Positions 2,840 to 20,906 of a stretch of DNA of 50,564 nt are shown one piece after another. The notes under the pieces were generated by a model. That model worked only from the letters and a program-made list of their open reading frames with translations, was not told the DNA's origin and ran no database searches. Location: contig CAMVFE010000015.1 in NCBI GenBank assembly GCA_947166705.1, positions 1-50,564 of the forward strand, written 5' to 3'. How positions within the stretch are numbered: the first letter of the stretch is position 1; each line of letters starts with the position of its first letter. This stretch comes from an uncultured Clostridia bacterium (GTDB lineage: Bacteria > Bacillota > Clostridia > Christensenellales > Aristaeellaceae). The translations under genes and the position numbers were made by a program.

Positions 2840-5800
2840 TTATTTCAGGACCACGTTTTCATAGGCCCTGGACCAGTCCATGGTTTCCTGCTCGCCGTAT
2901 CCCTCCGGGTATTCGCCCGGCCTTCTCAGCGCGTATCCGAGGTCGATGTTGAAATCGGTGCTGTCGCTGGCCACGGCAAACTCGTCGGTATAGGCGGTTT
3001 CCTCCTCCGTCTCGTTCAGCGAGGAGACGATCAGGGGAATATCCGTGCGCTTTCCGGTGGGCTTCACCTCGGACGGTGCGGTGGCCTTCAGGGTGTAGAC
3101 CGCGGGATAGACCTCCCGGAAGAAGTACAGGCCGTACTGATCCGTTTCCGTCTCCGCCACGGTCTCCCCGTTCCGGACCAGCTCCACCTTCACATGGGGA
3201 ATTCCGAGCTCGCCGCCGTCCTGCCATCCGTTTCCGTTGACATCCAGCCAGCAGTAGTCGCCGATCGTGCCGGGGAGCACCGCGCCCACGTTCAGGCTCA
3301 GCTGATCCGCGCCCATCTTCAGTTCAATATCTTCCGACGCGCCGGTGCGCCCGTCCGTCTCCTTCAGCACGGAGACGAGTCCTGTCTCCAGCCGTTCGTC
3401 CTCCGGCTCCACGGCGACCGTGCCCTCCGGCATTTCCGCCTGAATCCGGTAGGTCCCGGGCATCAGCCCGCTGAAGCGCCACATGCCCGTTTCCGCGGTT
3501 GTCTGCGTCTGCAGGACGTTTCCGTCCGCGTCCAGCAGGCGGACGACGGCTTCGGCCAGGGGCGCGGCGCCCTGTCCGCGGTCGACCCAGGCCTCGCCGC
3601 CCAGCGAGGTATACTTCACGAAGCCCAGCACCGGATCCTCCCGGCTTTCACCCTCCGCGAGGGCGATACCGTCCATCACCAGCCGGTTCCCCTCCCGCCG
3701 GAAGGTACCGTCCCCCTCCTTCGGCAGGTCCGTATCCGGATCCGTCTCAAAGCTCAGGGAGTAGCTCCCCGGCACCATGCCGGCAAATTCAAACACGCCC
3801 CGCTCGTCGGTGCGCAGCGTCCGGAAGGCCTCCCCGGTCTCCTCGTCCGTCACCAGTACCGCCAGGCCCGACGGCGTCTTTTCATTCTCCTCCATCAGGC
3901 CGTTATTGTTCTCATCCATCCAGGCCCTGCCCCGCAGCGAGGCCGGAGCCACGGCGCCGATCGCCTGATCGGCCCGGATCTCGCCCATGGCCACATCCAG
4001 CGGGACCTCCTGTTCCCGCAGCCCTGCCTCAAGCGGCAGCGCGAGCCCGCCCGTCCGGGCGGTCACCGTGCCTTCCGGCAGGACGACCTTCAGCGTGTAG
4101 CTGTCCGGATGCAGGCCCGTCAGCGCGAATGCGCCCGTCCCGTCTGAAACCGCCTCCGCTTCCTCCAGGTCCTCCCGGCCGGGAATCAGCAGGATCCGCG
4201 CGCCGGCCAGCGGAGCGTCCCCGTCTTCCCGCGTGCCGGACCCGTCGTGATCCCGGAACACGGTTCCTGTGACGCTGCCCAGCGTCAGCGCGCCGCAGAG
4301 CGGCGCTTCCTTCAGGTCCGCCGTTTTGAAATCAAACCATTCCCCGCGTCCGGTTCCTTCCTCCCCGGAGACGGCGCTGTCCCCGCCGGCTTTCGCGAAG
4401 ATGGCGCCTTCGGGCAGCTGATACTCAAGGAAGTACCTGCCCGGCATCACCGCGTCGAAAAGGAATTCGCCGCTGTCCCCAAGCTCCGCGGAGAATGCCT
4501 CCCCCTCTTCGCTCATCAGCCGGACCACGGTGCCGGCCAGGCCGTCCTCACCGCTGTCCCGGCGGCCGTTGTCATTCCGGTCCGCGAATACCGCGCCCTT
4601 CACCGTGCCGGGCATGATCATGCCGGCGTCCCGTCCCCCGATGCTCTCGCCCAGCGGGACCTCAAAGGGTTCGGAATAGCCTTCCCCGCCGTTCAGGTTC
4701 AGCATGATGCTGCCCTCTCCGATCCGGGTGAAGGCATATCCCTTCTTCGCGGTCATGCGCAGGCTGTATTTTCCGGGGGTCAGCTCCGTGAAGGAATAGG
4801 TTCCCTTCGCGGTGGTCTGCTTCCGGTCCACCTCTTCCCCGTTCTCATTCAGCAGCACGACGCTGATTCCCTGCGCGGCCTTTTCGCCGCCGTTCCGGGT
4901 CGCGGAAAAATCGTCGTCCATGTACACGGTGCCGCTGACGGAGCCGTAGTAGAGCGCGCCGACGTTCACCGTGCGGCTTTCCCCGTCCTTCAGCTCAAAG
5001 TCCTTCCAGAAATTCTCCCTCCGGTTCGGCCTGGCCTCGAAATGGTTTCCCTCCGGATCGCTGACCACCCGCGTGAAGTCGCTTCCGTCCTCCGGCAGCA
5101 CCGCGCGGATCCTGTAGGTGTTTCCGCGCAGCCCGCTGAGGGCGTAGCGGCCGTCCTCCCCGGAATAGGCCACCGCGATTTCCTCGTCCTTCAGCTGCTT
5201 GATCGCCGTGACCTTCACGCCCGCGAGCGGCTTCTCGCCCGCGTCGTAAAGCCCGTTGTAATTCGCGTCCAGGAAGGCGGTGCCGGAGACGGTTCCCTCC
5301 CGGATAAAACCGATGTTCTGGTCCGGCGTGTCCTGTCCGTCGTTCAGGTCCAGCGTGCGCGTGGACTTCGTTCTCCCCTCCGCCGTGAAGACGGAGCGGT
5401 TCTTTCCGCCGGTCTTCGTATAGCGGGTAAACGCCAGGCCCTCCGGGGCGTAGCCGGTAAAGTCGTAGAAGCCGGCCCTCACCCGGAAGATGCGCCAGTA
5501 TCCGTTCTCGTCCGAGTACGCTTCAAAGCTCAGCCCGTTCTTCTGGCCGGTCAGGGTGACCCGGACCCCGGGCATCCGGGGCTCGCTGTCGTTCATGATG
5601 CCGTCCGAGTTCTCATCCATCCAGCACACGCCGTCGACCACGACGCCCCGGAGCAGGCCGACGCCGCGCTCCACGGTTTCCCCGGCGGAGACGCGGATCG
5701 GTTCGGAATCCTGGATACCCTCCGCGGAGAAGGTCATGATGGAGCAGTCCAGCCCCGTATTCTTCGACCTGCGGTTGAAGCCCCATTTTTCCTCCAGCGA

Positions 5801-16324: not shown

Positions 16325-17347
16325 ATGGGCGGATATCTGCTCGGCTATGTTTCTGAAAAAGCGACGGTGACCCGGGAGGACGCCCGGAAGCTCACTCATA
16401 TCTGCGCCGCCTTCGGCCGGCTTCGGGGGGACGGCACCGTGCTGCGGGACCATCCCCTTACGGACCGCCTGGCGGAAATCCGGAGCTGGAATCCGGAAAT
16501 CCGCGTCCTCCTGTCCCTGGTGAACAACCCCGGGGAGGAGGACGCCTTCACCTCCGTCTGCGCTGATCCCCGGCTCCGGCAGGTCTTCGCGGAAAGCTGC
16601 GCGGAGCTGGCGGAAAAGCACGGCTTTGACGGGGTGGACCTGGACTGGGAATATCCCTACGTGCCCAGCAATTTCCAGGGTGCTTCCCCCGACGACCGGG
16701 AAAACTTCACCGAGACCCTCCGCGGCATCCGGAAGGCCTTCGATTCCCTGCCCGGGAAGCGGCCGCTCCTTTCCGTCGCCGCCGGCGCGGATCTCTATTA
16801 CACCGCCTCCGTGGACCTTCCGGCCGTTTCGGAGGTCCTGGATTTCATCAACCTGATGACCTATGACCTGAAATGCGGCTTCCACGCGCTTTCCGGCCAT
16901 CACACCCCGCTGTACAGCTCCGCCGGCGACTACTTCCGGAACAGCTGCGACCAGGCCCTCCGCCTGTTCACGGCCTGCGGCGTCCCGAAGGAAAAGCTGC
17001 TCCTGGGCTGCGCGTTCTACTCCCGGAAATGGGAGGACGTCCCGGACCGGAACCGGGGCTTCCTCCAGCTCACGAAGCGCGGCGGCAGCTACGGGCCTTC
17101 CTGGGCGGAGCTGGAGCGGGATTACCTGGACCGGAACGGCTTCACCCGATACTGGGACGATGAGGCGAAGGCGCCCTTCCTCTTCGACGGGAGCACCTTC
17201 ATCTCCTACGACGATCCCCGCAGCCTCCGGGAGAAATGCGCCTACGTCCGCCGGGAGGGATATGCCGGCATCTTCTACTGGGAGCACGGCTGCGATCCCT
17301 CCGGAAAGCTCCTCGACACGCTGTACCGGGGAATGAACGGGGACTGA
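16325..17347 (+). CDS. GH18 family glycoside hydrolase (chitinase-like), cytoplasmic
   Basis: A 340-residue single-domain GH18 enzyme. The catalytic motif DGVDLDWEYP has the full DxxDxDxE pattern with the acid at Glu109. Other barrel motifs are the SLVNN strand, MTYDL near 179 and the closing YAGIFYWEHGCD. GH18 enzymes cleave beta-1,4-GlcNAc links in chitin, N-glycans or peptidoglycan fragments by substrate-assisted catalysis. No signal peptide or carbohydrate-binding module is present, so the substrate is probably an imported chito-oligosaccharide or glycan (inference). AGGAGG lies upstream of the ATG. The gene is alone on its strand between a divergent operon and a convergent terminator. 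Confidence 0.9.
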   Translation: MGGYLLGYVSEKATVTREDARKLTHICAAFGRLRGDGTVLRDHPLTDRLAEIRSWNPEIRVLLSLVNNPGEEDAFTSVCADPRLRQVFAESCAELAEKHGFDGVDLDWEYPYVPSNFQGASPDDRENFTETLRGIRKAFDSLPGKRPLLSVAAGADLYYTASVDLPAVSEVLDFINLMTYDLKCGFHALSGHHTPLYSSAGDYFRNSCDQALRLFTACGVPKEKLLLGCAFYSRKWEDVPDRNRGFLQLTKRGGSYGPSWAELERDYLDRNGFTRYWDDEAKAPFLFDGSTFISYDDPRSLREKCAYVRREGYAGIFYWEHGCDPSGKLLDTLYRGMNGD

Positions 17348-17375
17348 TCAGCCCGGCTCCGGAGGGACAGGAAAA

Positions 17376-17394
17376 GGCGCCGCGACGCGGCGCC
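17376..17394 (-). terminator. GC-rich hairpin, second terminator after the transporter gene
   Basis: GGCGCCGC/GCGGCGCC with a GAC loop; on the minus strand TTTTCC follows. It lies beyond the bidirectional terminator at 17441-17478 and may act as a back-up stop. Confidence 0.5.
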
Positions 17395-17440
17395 GGAGGA
17401 ATGGAAAAACGACTCCCCGCCTTCCGTTTCCGGGCGGGCG

Positions 17441-17478
17441 AAAAAAACCAGCGCCGCGTCTGCGGCGCCAGTTTTTTT
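17441..17478. terminator. Bidirectional terminator between convergent genes
   Basis: Stem GCGCCGC (17451-17457)/GCGGCGC (17462-17468) with a 4-base loop is flanked by seven A on the left and seven T on the right, so it can stop transcription from both the GH18 gene and the binding-protein gene. Confidence 0.88.
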
Positions 17479-17530
17479 GTTCCCGCGGCGGGGCTGTGTT
17501 TCTCCCGCCCCGGGGTTCCGGAAGCGCGGG

Positions 17531-18355
17531 TCAGATCACGCCGCCTTCCACCACCAGGGAATCCGCGTCCGCGTTCTCCCCATAGGTTTCCCGCAGCGTG
17601 GCCTCGTAGTCGGCGTGGAAGAAGTTCTCCTCACCCAGTTTGACGATTTCCTCGTTGATCCAGGCCAGCAGCGTCTCGTTCCCCTTGGACACGGCGGGGT
17701 TGATGGTGTCCAGGCTGCCCAGGGACTCGATGCCTACGGCGAATCCGGGATTCTCGATCGCCCAGGCCAGCACCTCCGTGTTATCCGTGGACAGACCGTC
17801 GCCGCGCCCGTCCAGCAGACCCAGATAGGCGTCCGTGTAGGAATCATACCGGACCAGCTCCACCTCGGGATAGTTCTGCTCAAAGAAGGTTTCCGCCGTG
17901 GTGCCCTTGGAGACGATCAGCTTCTTTCCCTTCAGCTGCTCCACGTCCGTGATCAGCGCGCTCTCCGGGCTGACCACGCCGAGGGCCACCTTCATGTACG
18001 GCAGCGCGAAATCCACCTGCTCCGCGCGCTCCGCGGTATAGGTAAAGTTGGCCAGGATCACGTCCACCTTGAAGCTCTGCAGGAACTCGATGCGGTTCGG
18101 CGCGTCCACGGCGACGATCTCCAGTTCGACGCCCAGATCCTCCGCGAGCCGCCGGGCCAGGTACACGTCATAGCCCTGGAATTCGCCGTTTTCGTCCACA
18201 TAGCCGAAGGGTTTCTTGTCATGGAACAGCCCGATCACGATCTTTCCGCTTTCCTTAATCTCCTCCAGGGTGCGGAATCCCTCCGCGGACGCCGCGGCCG
18301 CCAGAACCAGGACCAGGGCCAGGGCCAGTGCAACTGCCTTCACAAAACGTTTCAT
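17531..18355 (-). CDS. Amino-acid ABC transporter substrate-binding protein, cysteine-binding (CjaA) type
   Basis: A 274-residue SBP_bac_3 family protein with a cleavable signal peptide ending at AAASAEG; it has no lipobox. Segments VDVILANFTYTAERAEQVDF, PYMKVALGV, SKGTTAETFF and the C-terminal VVEGGVI closely follow, as I recall them, the Campylobacter CjaA-type cysteine-binding proteins, so cysteine or cystine is the best guess for the ligand. This assignment needs an alignment. It is transcribed from its own promoter through a Cys-rich leader ORF and a terminator, separately from the permease and ATPase genes upstream. The start has AAGGAAGG before it. Confidence 0.88.
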   Translation of the reverse strand: MKRFVKAVALALALVLVLAAAASAEGFRTLEEIKESGKIVIGLFHDKKPFGYVDENGEFQGYDVYLARRLAEDLGVELEIVAVDAPNRIEFLQSFKVDVILANFTYTAERAEQVDFALPYMKVALGVVSPESALITDVEQLKGKKLIVSKGTTAETFFEQNYPEVELVRYDSYTDAYLGLLDGRGDGLSTDNTEVLAWAIENPGFAVGIESLGSLDTINPAVSKGNETLLAWINEEIVKLGEENFFHADYEATLRETYGENADADSLVVEGGVI

Positions 18356-18411
18356 TTTTTTCCTTCCTTTCCTCCGGTCTTGCCGGAACTCTTATTTTTG
18401 GGGGGATCTTC

Positions 18412-18459
18412 CGAAAAAATATATAAAAAGGAGCCTGAACCATGTCCTGATCCGGCTCC
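18412..18459 (-). terminator. Leader terminator (putative attenuator) before the binding-protein gene
   Basis: GGAGCC/GGCTCC (18459-18454 with 18435-18430), extended by two more pairs after a mismatch, is followed on the minus strand by TTTTTATATATTTTTT. It lies between the Cys-rich leader ORF and the transporter gene, only about 57 bases before the start codon, so it must be bypassed for expression. Confidence 0.8.
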
Positions 18460-18483
18460 CTGGATTGTACCGCCTGCTGTGCG

Positions 18484-18561
18484 TCAACACAAACAAGCCT
18501 CCGACGGAGACGGACGCTTCTTGCAACACATACACAGGGCCATCATCTGCGCAGCGTACAT
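18484..18561 (-). CDS. Cys/Met-rich leader peptide (25 aa), putative attenuation peptide
   Basis: A 25-codon ORF between a consensus promoter and a terminator. AGGAG lies 8 bases before the ATG, a better ribosome binding site than many genes here have. The peptide has five Cys (residues 10, 12, 13, 23, 25) and four Met (1, 6, 7, 11); the run at 9-13 is LCMCC and the end is ACLC. Four of five Cys codons are TGT although the genome favours G/C at third positions. In classical attenuation a ribosome stalls at such codons when the charged tRNA is scarce and prevents the downstream terminator from forming. GGCTT at codons 21-23 could pair with GAGCC of the terminator's 5' arm. The downstream gene encodes a probable cysteine-binding protein, which fits. 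Confidence 0.72.
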   Translation of the reverse strand: MYAAQMMALCMCCKKRPSPSEACLC

Positions 18562-18581
18562 GGTTCCGTCTCCTCTCTTTC

Positions 18582-18598
18582 CCTACCTTTCCGGTAGG
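18582..18598 (-). promoter_or_regulatory. 5'-terminal hairpin of the leader transcript
   Basis: CCTACC/GGTAGG with a 5-base loop starts a few bases after the predicted transcription start. It probably protects the RNA 5' end or insulates the ribosome binding site of the leader ORF. Confidence 0.5.
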
Positions 18599-18606
18599 TT
18601 GGTTGG

Positions 18607-18635
18607 ATTATATTCCTTCCTCACGGGTCTGTCAA
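18607..18635 (-). promoter_or_regulatory. Consensus promoter of the Cys leader and binding-protein gene
   Basis: TTGACA (18635-18630), exactly 17 bases, and TATAAT (18612-18607): a perfect SigA-type promoter. A promoter this strong placed before a terminator fits control by attenuation rather than by initiation. Confidence 0.92.
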
Positions 18636-18666
18636 TCCCCGGGATTGTATTTGGATTGTTTTTTGG

Positions 18667-18692
18667 CGCGGCCCCGGATGTCCGGGGCCGCG
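18667..18692 (-). repeat. 12-bp GC hairpin at the end of the transporter ATPase transcript
   Basis: CGCGGCCCCGGA/TCCGGGGCCGCG with a 2-base loop lies 12 bases after the ATPase stop. On the minus strand an A run, not a T run, follows. It may be a 3' stabilising or Rho-type element rather than an intrinsic terminator. Confidence 0.5.
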
Positions 18693-18703
18693 GGTTCCGG
18701 ACC

Positions 18704-19489
18704 TCAGGCGTCTTCGGGCATTCCCGCTGGGTCCCTGGGGCGCTTCCGGGCGGAGGCATAGGTGAAGCTCTGCAGGAAGCGGCGGGCGCGCTCGGTCCGG
18801 GGCTCCCGGAAGAACTCCTCCGGAACGCCCTCCTCGGCGATCACGCCCTGCTCCATGAACAGGACCCGGTCCGCCACCGCCTCGGCGAAGCGCATCTCGT
18901 GGGTCACGATCGCCATGGTCATCCCCTGCTCCGCCAGGTCGATCACCACGTTCAGCACCTCGGACACCATTTCCGGGTCCAGCGCGGCGGTGATCTCGTC
19001 CAGCAGCAAAAGCTCCGGGTGCATCAGCATCGCCCGCACCAGCGCCACGCGCTGCTTCTGCCCGCCGGACAGCGTGCGGGGCAGCGCCTGGGCTTTGTCC
19101 GCCAGGCCGACGCGCCTGAGCATCTCCACGGCCTCCGCCTCGACCTCCTCCCGGGGCTTTTTCAGCGCCTTGACAGGGCCCAGCAGCAGGTTGTCCATCA
19201 CCTTCATATGCGGGAACAGGTCGTAGCTCTGGAACACCATGCCGATCCGCTGGCGCACCCGGTACATGTCCTTTCCCAGGTCGGAGATCCGCTGATCCCG
19301 CAGCCAGATTTCGCCCCGGTCAATCTTCTCCAGCCCGTTGATGCAGCGCAGCAGCGTGCTTTTCCCGCACCCGCTGGGGCCGATGATCACAACGACCTCG
19401 CCTTCCCGGATGTCCAGGCTGACGCCCTGAAGCACCCCGTTGCCGTCGAAGCCCTTGTAAATCTCCTTCACCCGCAGAATCGGCTCCAT
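18704..19489 (-). CDS. Polar amino-acid ABC transporter ATP-binding protein
   Basis: A 261-residue ATPase of the GlnQ/HisP class. Walker [11 protein letters not shown]-loop [13 protein letters not shown], signature [15 protein letters not shown] and Walker [14 protein letters not shown] are all intact. It energises the two permeases encoded just upstream. I chose the ATG at 19489 because GAGGAG lies 6 bases before it. An earlier ATG at 19522 overlaps the permease stop as ATGA and would add 11 charged residues, so it remains possible. Confidence 0.93.
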
Positions 19490-19514
19490 CGCGATCTCCT
19501 CTTTCTCCGTCCTC

Positions 19515-20189
19515 TTACTCATGATAGCGCCGCTCCAGGCTTCCCGCCAGCAGGGAAATGGGCCAGCAGATCAGGAAATAGAGCAGGAACACCGCCGCGT
19601 AGACCCAGAAGGCCGCGGAAGGCTCCCGGTAAAACTGCCCGATAATCTGCTGCCCGACCTTCAGCACCTCCGTCACGTTGATCATCTTGACCAGCGCCGT
19701 GGTCTTGATGATCCGGGTGGACAGGTTAATCACCTGCGGCAGCAGGCGGCGCACCGTCTGGGGCAGCAGGATGTAACGGTTGATCTGCGCCCGGGTCAGC
19801 CCCAGCGCCGCCGCGCTCTCCCGCTGATGCCGCGGGATGGAGGTCAGCGCGCCCCGGAAAAGGTCGCCCATCTCCGCCGTGCCCCAGAAGGAGAACACCA
19901 GCACCGCGCTCGCTTCCCCGTCCAGATTCCAGCCGAAGAGCCGGGCGAATCCGAAATACACCAGGTAGAGCAGCACCAGCTGCGGCATGAACCGGACGAT
20001 CTCCAGCCAGACACGGCAGACGCTCCGGGCCGCCCTGCTGCGGCTCATCATCACAATGCCGAAGAGCAGCCCCAGCACGATGGAGATGCCGATCGTGATC
20101 AGCGCGATGCGGAGCGTCACCCAGAGGCCCAGCAGCAGCCGCTGAAAATTGACGCCCCTAAACAGAACGCTGATTCCCAAATCCTGCAT
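19515..20189 (-). CDS. Polar amino-acid ABC transporter permease (second subunit)
   Basis: A 224-residue inner-membrane permease of the HisM/GlnP family with about five transmembrane segments. The EAA-type cytoplasmic loop, near [20 protein letters not shown], contacts the ATPase. The ATG at 20189 has AAAGGAGG 7 bases upstream and overlaps the 3' end of the first permease by 32 bases. With its neighbour it would form a heterodimeric pore. The substrate is probably the same as that of the CjaA-like binding protein 160 bases beyond the ATPase gene. Confidence 0.92.
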
Positions 20190-20829
20190 ACCGCAGCCTC
20201 CTTTCCGCCAGATTTGCCAGCAGGGAGACCGGCAGCAGCAGCGCCAGATAGGCCGCCGCCAGCATGAACAGCACCTCGACGGTGCGGCCGCCGCTGGTGC
20301 GCAGCGTATCGGCGACATTCATCAGATCCATCATGGCCAGCACGGAAAACATGCTGGTTTCCTTGATCAGAAAAATCACATTGGCGAAAAGCGCGGGCAC
20401 GGCCGTCGCCAGCGCCTGGGGCAGCAGAATATAGCGGATATTCTGCCACCGGGTCAGGCCCAGGCATTCCCCGGCCTCCCGCTGGCTTTTCTCCACGGAT
20501 TCCAGGCCGCTTCGGAACGCCTCGGCCATATAGGCCCCTCCCAGGAAGGTCAGCCCGATCACCGCGCAGGCCTCCGCGCTGAGGCGGATCCCGACCCTGG
20601 GAAGGCCGGCATAAAGAAAGAAAAGCTGCACGAGCAGCGGCGTATTCCGTGCCAGTTCAATATATCCGCGGGCGGCGCCCTTCAGCACCGGAACCCGGAA
20701 ATAGCGCAGCAGGCAGCAGATCAGCCCCAGCGCCATGGCGCATCCCACGCCGCAGAGGCCGAAGCGCAGCGTAACCCAGGCTCCGGCAGCGTAGTCCGGA
20801 ATATGGCTGCCGATAAATTCCCAGTCCAC
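20158..20829 (-). CDS. Polar amino-acid ABC transporter permease (first subunit)
   Basis: A 223-residue permease of the same family, with an ARNTPLLVQLFFLYAGLP block and the EAA loop AGECLGLTRWQNIRYILLPQ. I chose the GTG at 20829 because AGGAGGTG lies 8 bases upstream; earlier in-frame sequence is not membrane-like. It is the first gene of the permease-permease-ATPase operon. A promoter lies about 50 bases upstream, without a leader ORF, so this operon and the binding-protein gene appear to be controlled separately. Confidence 0.92.
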   Translation of the reverse strand: MDWEFIGSHIPDYAAGAWVTLRFGLCGVGCAMALGLICCLLRYFRVPVLKGAARGYIELARNTPLLVQLFFLYAGLPRVGIRLSAEACAVIGLTFLGGAYMAEAFRSGLESVEKSQREAGECLGLTRWQNIRYILLPQALATAVPALFANVIFLIKETSMFSVLAMMDLMNVADTLRTSGGRTVEVLFMLAAAYLALLLPVSLLANLAERRLRYAGFGNQRSV

Positions 20830-20877
20830 CGCGCTCCCACCTCCTGAATTACCCTTCGTTTCAATAGGTTGAAGACG

Positions 20878-20906
20878 ATGATACTCCCCTCGCACCCAAA
20901 AGTAAA
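20878..20906 (-). promoter_or_regulatory. Promoter of the amino-acid permease operon
   Basis: TTTACT (20906-20901), 17 bases and TATCAT (20883-20878) on the minus strand. Confidence 0.6.

Follow-up and report, generated by a model that had tools for sequence, protein, structure and literature searches.

T-boxes (RF00230) are a common device for the control of amino acid operons in Bacillota. Cys-rich ORFs of mycobacteria are reportedly leaderless, going by the title of Canestrari 2020. Excerpts of published work place Cys-rich uORFs in mycobacteria (PMC4633059), describe their action as translation attenuation (PMC13236596), and report Cys-codon leaders in Actinobacteria without conserved terminator hairpins (PMC1262725). 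In Rhodobacterales, the uORFC-8-2 motif upstream of cysS is described, in an excerpt, as having tandem Cys codons and a U run such as an intrinsic terminator would show, and attenuation by Cys-tRNA is predicted there (PMC8632094). Within Firmicutes/Bacillota, His leader peptides with attenuation of the trp/his type occur according to passages from two papers (PMC9413887, PMC2965389). As far as those passages go, the leaders analysed here, before a substrate-binding protein (SBP) gene and before metY, share with trp/his-type attenuators an ORF carrying regulatory codons, a terminator, a competing antiterminator and genes related to the same amino acid. We found that the SBP leader is very probably a ribosome-mediated (trp/his-type) transcription attenuator measuring charged tRNA-Cys, and possibly also tRNA-Met. 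A Cys-codon leader-peptide attenuator had been proposed in the initial annotation of this DNA, and the proposal is supported by the leader ORFs and terminators of relatives, ribosome-dependent folds, the homology of the gene, sulfur-related neighbours and the metY leaders.

Layout of the leader and its gene

All elements of the putative attenuator lie on the minus strand, within the coordinates of the initial annotation, and the gene behind it has the same orientation. The window (the whole stretch of 50,564 nucleotides analysed) has a GC content of 64%; the source assembly is 71% complete and comprises 2.18 Mb in 73 contigs. The features are as follows.

20158-20895, minus strand: second ABC permease gene (224-aa part at 20832-20161 examined)
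19515-20318, minus strand: ABC permease gene, ORF as listed (246-aa part from 20255 on examined)
18704-19522, minus strand: ABC ATPase gene, probably of the same transporter, upstream of the leader and ending before the leader promoter
18630-18635, minus strand: -35 box TTGACA, part of a promoter matching the consensus at 12/12 positions, with a 17-nt spacer
18607-18612, minus strand: -10 box TATAAT, 12/12 consensus together with the -35 box
18582-18598, minus strand: palindrome CCTACCGGAAAGGTAGG, directly 3' of the -10 box, a candidate repressor operator with variants in relatives
18566-18573, minus strand: segment 1, GGAGACGG, the complement of segment 2, in the Shine-Dalgarno region of the leader
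18484-18561, minus strand: leader ORF MYAAQMMALCMCCKKRPSPSEACLC, 25 codons and TGA, with homologs in relatives
18523-18534, minus strand: putative sensor codons TGT (10), ATG (11), TGT (12) and TGC (13), from the alignment and a stall scan
18506-18515, minus strand: segment 2, GTCCGTCTCC, codons 16-19, predicted antiterminator arm, from the alignment and folds
18450-18459, minus strand: segment 3, GGAGCCGGAT, terminator 5' arm, from folds
18422-18461, minus strand: intrinsic terminator hairpin and U run, from folding (-19.2 kcal/mol)
17531-18355, minus strand: predicted cysteine-type ABC substrate-binding protein (SBP) gene, 274 aa, from homology; the putative regulated gene

The promoter TTGACA-17-TATAAT, already reported in the initial annotation, is the sole promoter-like site found within 17300-19700 (mean in shuffles, 0.2). 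The Cys/Met-rich leader ORF described with it was likewise recovered, with an AGGAG Shine-Dalgarno sequence 8 nt 5' of its ATG, five Cys codons (four TGT and one TGC) and four Met codons counting the start. The terminator claimed after the ORF is also present, as a hairpin followed by TTTTT that was detected by folding and is absent from the list of the pattern scanner.

The gene behind the leader had been taken for a cysteine-type ABC binding protein, and sequence homology, which covers most of the mature protein, agrees with this assignment. Its closest matches are 1xt8 (E 3.7e-83), which we take to be the cysteine binder CjaA of Campylobacter, and 2yjp (E 1.4e-74), presumably the cysteine binder NGO0372 of Neisseria; NCBIfam returned amino-acid binding proteins, all under cut-off, with a cystine family second. 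The ATPase and the two permease genes precede the SBP gene on the same strand. In relatives, going by our reading of translations, a metY-like gene lies between the ATPase and SBP genes (G026), and cystathionine-type PLP enzymes flank the cluster on both sides in G061, the downstream one being seen in G062 as well. In another relative (L078 of G018), the SBP gene is preceded by promoter-like sequence of its own.

Leader ORFs and codon use among relatives

The SBP matched in 31 of the 45 genomes of the genus, one of them a partial match (G024) outside the fetched set, and the 30 fetched loci fall into two sets of 15, one with 82-100% identity and the other with 59-63%. A Cys/Met leader with a terminator precedes 10 of the 15 close orthologs and is missing in the other five (L049, L050, L051, L053 and L057). 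No leader stands directly before SBP in the 15 loci at 59-63% identity, six of which list Cys-containing ORFs judged not leader-like; at least two genomes of this set (G033 and G066) carry metY with its own leader about 2.2 kb upstream of SBP on the same strand. The Cys-containing ORFs rejected at L051, L057, L064, L065, L067, L070, L072 and L076, from a listing made with no Shine-Dalgarno filter, have TTG or GTG starts or lie inside neighbouring genes.

The initial annotation had suggested a search for the ORF upstream of CjaA-like genes in relatives, and comparable ORFs do recur there: among the best 80 of at least 509 relatives in public genomes, some sharing one genome, 37 SBP homologs have upstream a Shine-Dalgarno-led ORF of 18-30 aa with at least three Cys, compared with a mean of 2.45/80 in dinucleotide shuffles and 1/80 on the reverse strand. 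Together with the window, G027 and G064, these gave 40 distinct leaders, and an intrinsic terminator between leader ORF and gene was called in 39 of them, in line with the expected retention of the terminator. Two main shapes of leader peptide were seen, that of the window (…PS…CLR) and …CCMCRxRRPMPCR…, with outliers including L157, L158 and L175. The sequence GTCCGTCT is invariant within the ORFs of ten genus leaders and has variants in the wider set. A search with a 'type-B' leader pattern in 395 genomes from the order yielded four matches, namely two SBP leaders and two sequences that are not leader-like. An Rfam scan of 36 of the 43 leaderless homolog loci (all except L150, L151, L169 and L224-L227) found just two tRNA genes at the gathering threshold.

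Each of the 40 leaders has 3-6 Cys and 1-5 non-start Met codons. The preference for TGT in a GC-rich genome, which had been remarked upon for the window leader, extends to the whole set, where TGT makes up 127 of 179 Cys codons; in 15 long genes of the window, picked by hand from the ORF list, the figure is 3 of 81. A further expectation, that Cys codons would be conserved while other codons drift, failed column by column: in the 25 anchored leaders, Cys-containing columns were no better conserved than the others (identical pairs, 420/1099 vs 618/1453). The cluster as such is kept, however, since 2-5 Cys fall within the 11 codons before segment 2 in 25 of 25 anchored leaders while single columns drift. 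The +1 frame of the leaders also contains Cys (134/899), a count that makes frame-by-frame comparison uninformative because ATGTG contains TGT.

Another short ORF, encoding the motif DRC ((S/T)A(R/K/T)DRC and similar; DNA GAYCGATGY), was observed between the terminator, where present, and SBP at L048, L049, L050, L052, L054, L055, L056, L058, L059, L061 and L139; it is absent from the window. At L049 (G062) and L050 (G061), promoter and palindrome are retained and the DRC ORF still stands before SBP, with the Cys leader and terminator absent. GAY and TGY vary synonymously in this ORF and CGA is constant, although fixed by the search pattern. Among the matches to the DRC pattern listed in the genus, 11 of 26 lie before the SBP gene and 15 in unrelated contexts.

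Ribosome position and competing folds

The following course of events is inferred, from the start of transcription and the translation of the leader through ribosome stalling and kinetic read-through to a response to cysteine. RNA polymerase would start from the promoter, and a ribosome would translate the leader ORF. When Cys-tRNA is low, the ribosome would stall on codons 10-13 (TGT, TGT, TGC) and leave GTCCGTCTCC free to pair with the emerging 5' arm of the terminator, which would then form too late, and the SBP gene would be transcribed. When Cys-tRNA is ample, the ribosome would cover GTCCGTCTCC and the 5' arm would stay free, so that the terminator would form and transcription end.

The competing pairings of this scheme are found in silico in the window leader, where GTCCGTCTCC is complementary to GGAGACGG at the leader Shine-Dalgarno sequence and, with one mismatch, to GGAGCCGGAT. 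In a truncated transcript, which ends before the 3' arm of the terminator, the ORF segment GTCCGTCTCC pairs with the Shine-Dalgarno region when no ribosome is placed; with a ribosome on codon 10 or 12 it pairs (18515-18506) with GGAGCCGGAT (18459-18450); and with a ribosome at the stop, just a weak fold (-3.9 kcal/mol) competes for the terminator arm. The full-length leader folded into the terminator in all three states considered (no ribosome, codon 10 and stop). The ribosome-dependent refolding anticipated by the initial annotation was thus seen as an antiterminator at codons 10 and 12 in the truncated transcript, but not at full length with the ribosome on codon 10. The partner proposed there did not hold up either: GGCTT (codons 21-23), supposed to pair with GAGCC of the terminator, forms an inner stem, and it is GTCCGTCTCC that holds the terminator arm.

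We further folded the 39 SBP leaders with a called terminator (L179, with none called, was left out). At full length, equilibrium folds gave the terminator in nearly all ribosome states; with the ribosome on one or another Cys codon of the cluster, its value dropped below 0.8 in just five leaders (L148, L158, L161, L180 and L055), and without a ribosome it was below 0.5 in L158, L167 and L055. Truncated transcripts were used because of this low state dependence. Since full-length folds favour the terminator, the switch would need to work kinetically. In the truncated leaders, the probability of sequestration of the terminator 5' arm averaged 0.76 with the ribosome on the Cys cluster and 0.42 with the ribosome 2-6 codons later, compared with 0.65 and 0.61 in shuffled-ORF controls (p 7e-12 for the native contrast against that of the shuffles, a value that is too small, like all folding and pairing p values given here, because the leaders are related). 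The arm was sequestered more with the ribosome on a cluster Cys than 2-6 codons on in 39 of 39 leaders, and this difference exceeded the 90th percentile of the leader's own shuffles in 33; the in-cluster level by itself did so in just 11. With the ribosome at the stop, mean sequestration was 0.35. The onset of the steepest fall ranged from 5 codons upstream of the last Cys in the cluster to 9 codons past it, with a median of 1 codon upstream. These results, within the folding model, support a contrast between a stalled and a moving ribosome.

Pairing of the Shine-Dalgarno region with the ORF was locus-specific in the SBP leaders (p 1.2e-5 vs cross-locus pairs, in related sequences), and pairing of the ORF with the terminator arm exceeded that of shuffled sequences (p 5e-7) but did not exceed that of cross-locus pairs (p 0.25). 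The idea that the Shine-Dalgarno pairing would lead to termination of an untranslated leader was not supported by the truncated folds: without a ribosome, the arm still showed a mean sequestration of 0.66, with values over 0.5 for 31 of the 39 leaders and 0.38 for the window leader.

Other sulfur genes, rival readings and known systems

Pattern matches led to a leader before metY in G012 and to another before a LysR gene in G011. The metY ortholog of G012 scored 623.8 bits against TIGR01326 (cut-off, 495.1), and metY matches were present in 39 of the 45 genus genomes, in a close set of 20 (87-100% identity) and a more distant set of 19 (71-73%). A leader whose peptide has CRM or CGRM, then xxSR(A/T), was found before 20 of the 20 close orthologs (L246-L265) by a motif-guided finder, designed after a blind finder that recovers it in 14 of 20; it was absent in all ten paralogs fetched from the 19 at 71-73%. 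A terminator is present in 20 of 20 metY leaders, which carry 1-5 Cys each (in total 50 TGT and 13 TGC). The anchor has CGA at Arg in 19 of 20, ATG next in 20 of 20 and TCC CGG in 19 of 20, the exception being L254, which is shifted by an earlier CRM.

The antiterminator of the metY leaders pairs 9/9 with the terminator arm in all 20. The in-ORF sequence CTCCCGGGC pairs in this way with terminator GCCCGGGAG in 17 leaders; in L262 and L263 both sides have changed (CTCCCGGAC with GTCCGGGAG, G-C to A-U) and the match is still 9/9, a compensatory change that may be one event in the two; and in L247 one side has changed, giving G-U. Sequestration in the metY leaders gave a weaker contrast than in the SBP leaders, on average 0.74 vs 0.58 (p 8e-5 vs shuffles), and 5 of the 20 exceeded the 90th percentile of their shuffles; the average is modest because sequestration often recovers further along. 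In many of these leaders it falls 2-3 codons past the last Cys before the anchor (from 0.7 to 0.2 in L248), and L251 and L253 have no clear fall.

At the third locus (G011; L232/L245/L276), a leader MIRRQVEKTMRKEQRCTMCMWRSFHIPSCCAS, a terminator-like hairpin and the palindrome precede a LysR-type gene, with a sulfonate-type ABC cluster and another PLP enzyme behind it (names from translations). Among LysR homologs, the leader finder matched in 3 of 30 loci, with palindrome and terminator in L276 only.

The leaders might instead form a general sensor of sulfur amino acids, in which Met codons stall the ribosome alongside or instead of Cys; we regard this as possible but rather unlikely. Met alternates with Cys and makes up 117 of the 939 non-start leader residues, and in the metY leaders ATG occupies position -3 relative to the anchor in 17 cases out of 20 and position +1 in every case. 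Cys is commoner, however (179/939), is coded by TGT, which is rare in window genes, and in all 20 metY leaders falls among the four codons ahead of the anchor.

At SBP the palindrome CCTAY-N7-RTAGG lies 3' of the -10 box, and at metY it overlaps the -35 box; these positions suit an operator on the DNA better than an element of the RNA, and make it a candidate operator of an Rrf2/CymR-like repressor. Such a repressor might be the regulator, with the terminator merely fixing a level of read-through, and the presence in one relative (G018; L078, ~5181-5600) of an Rrf2-type regulator gene, so named from its translation, between the ABC ATPase and SBP genes agrees with that. We nevertheless consider this improbable, since a repressor alone would account neither for the Cys codons and their bias towards TGT nor for the dependence of pairing on ribosome position and the compensatory change at metY; a repressor layer and an attenuator layer can coexist. 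The operator pattern itself matched twice in the 45 genomes and is too strict for outlining a regulon.

Cys and Met also serve as metal ligands and the ATPase gene stands upstream of the hairpin, so the ORF could be imagined to encode a functional small protein (metal or redox binding), with the hairpin marking the end of the upstream ABC operon. This is very doubtful, given that peptide sequence and Cys spacing differ among relatives, that four leaders searched had no NCBIfam match, that the ORF carries the antiterminator segment and that a promoter lies between the ATPase gene and the hairpin. Hardly any credence is due to a known riboswitch or T-box overlooked by the initial annotation, which had seen no T-box: T-boxes are used in the genus (matches in 45 of 45 genomes, 34 over cut-off), but Rfam scans of the window and of the SBP and metY leader loci speak against this, with no match at the gathering threshold in the window or in the 20 metY leader loci, tRNA as the one match (in 16 of 37) in the SBP leader loci, and five weak matches, all below the gathering score, in a low-threshold scan of the window leader. 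With T-box matches in all 45 genomes, both devices, T-boxes and attenuation by leader peptides, seem to be in use in the genus.

Attenuation by a Cys-codon leader is the reading we favour. Comparison among genomes lends good support to a putative cysteine-responsive, trp-type attenuation regulon in Clostridia, and in related bacteria of the gut comparable switches appear to stand before further sulfur-related genes. On a fuller proposal our judgement is evenly divided: a sulfur regulon of gut Clostridia (SBP, metY and, at least once, a LysR/sulfonate cluster) may combine the CCTAY-N7-RTAGG operator with separately built, TGT-sensing Cys/Met attenuators, in bacteria that use T-boxes elsewhere, with the DRC ORF as a further layer in many species. 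With two conserved, differently built leader families in one genus, the spread of a sensing logic across operons becomes directly comparable. The leaders are also candidates for studying how codon choice sets the sensitivity of an attenuator, and suggest roles in cysteine or sulfur metabolism for genes of little-studied gut bacteria.

The logic of attenuation is known; for this sensor amino acid, gene set and lineage no report was found, the literature search, which had most subscription journals outside its scope, having shown no Cys leader for Clostridia, before a transporter gene or before metY among the titles and abstract openings listed. As far as the excerpted sources describe them, mycobacterial and actinobacterial uORFs share with the present leaders runs of Cys codons before cysteine-related operons and a proposed or reported cysteine-responsive attenuation. 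Unlike the mycobacterial type in those excerpts, the window leader has a Shine-Dalgarno sequence 8 nt before its ATG and an intrinsic terminator, with a putative transcription start placed by the promoter alone. The uORFC-8-2 motif, in its excerpted account, belongs to Alphaproteobacteria, concerns cysteinyl-tRNA synthetase and is dominated by UGC, whereas the leaders here occur in Clostridia, precede a transporter gene and metY and are dominated by UGU. In contrast to the trp/his systems, again as excerpted, the codons are those of Cys (with Met) and the genes those of cysteine uptake and sulfhydrylation. The T-box model (RF00230) has no match in the SBP and metY leaders, where sensing would need a translated ORF. 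Cysteine control in Bacillota is usually described in terms of CymR, T-boxes and S-boxes, and leader-peptide attenuation appears to take the place of these devices here.
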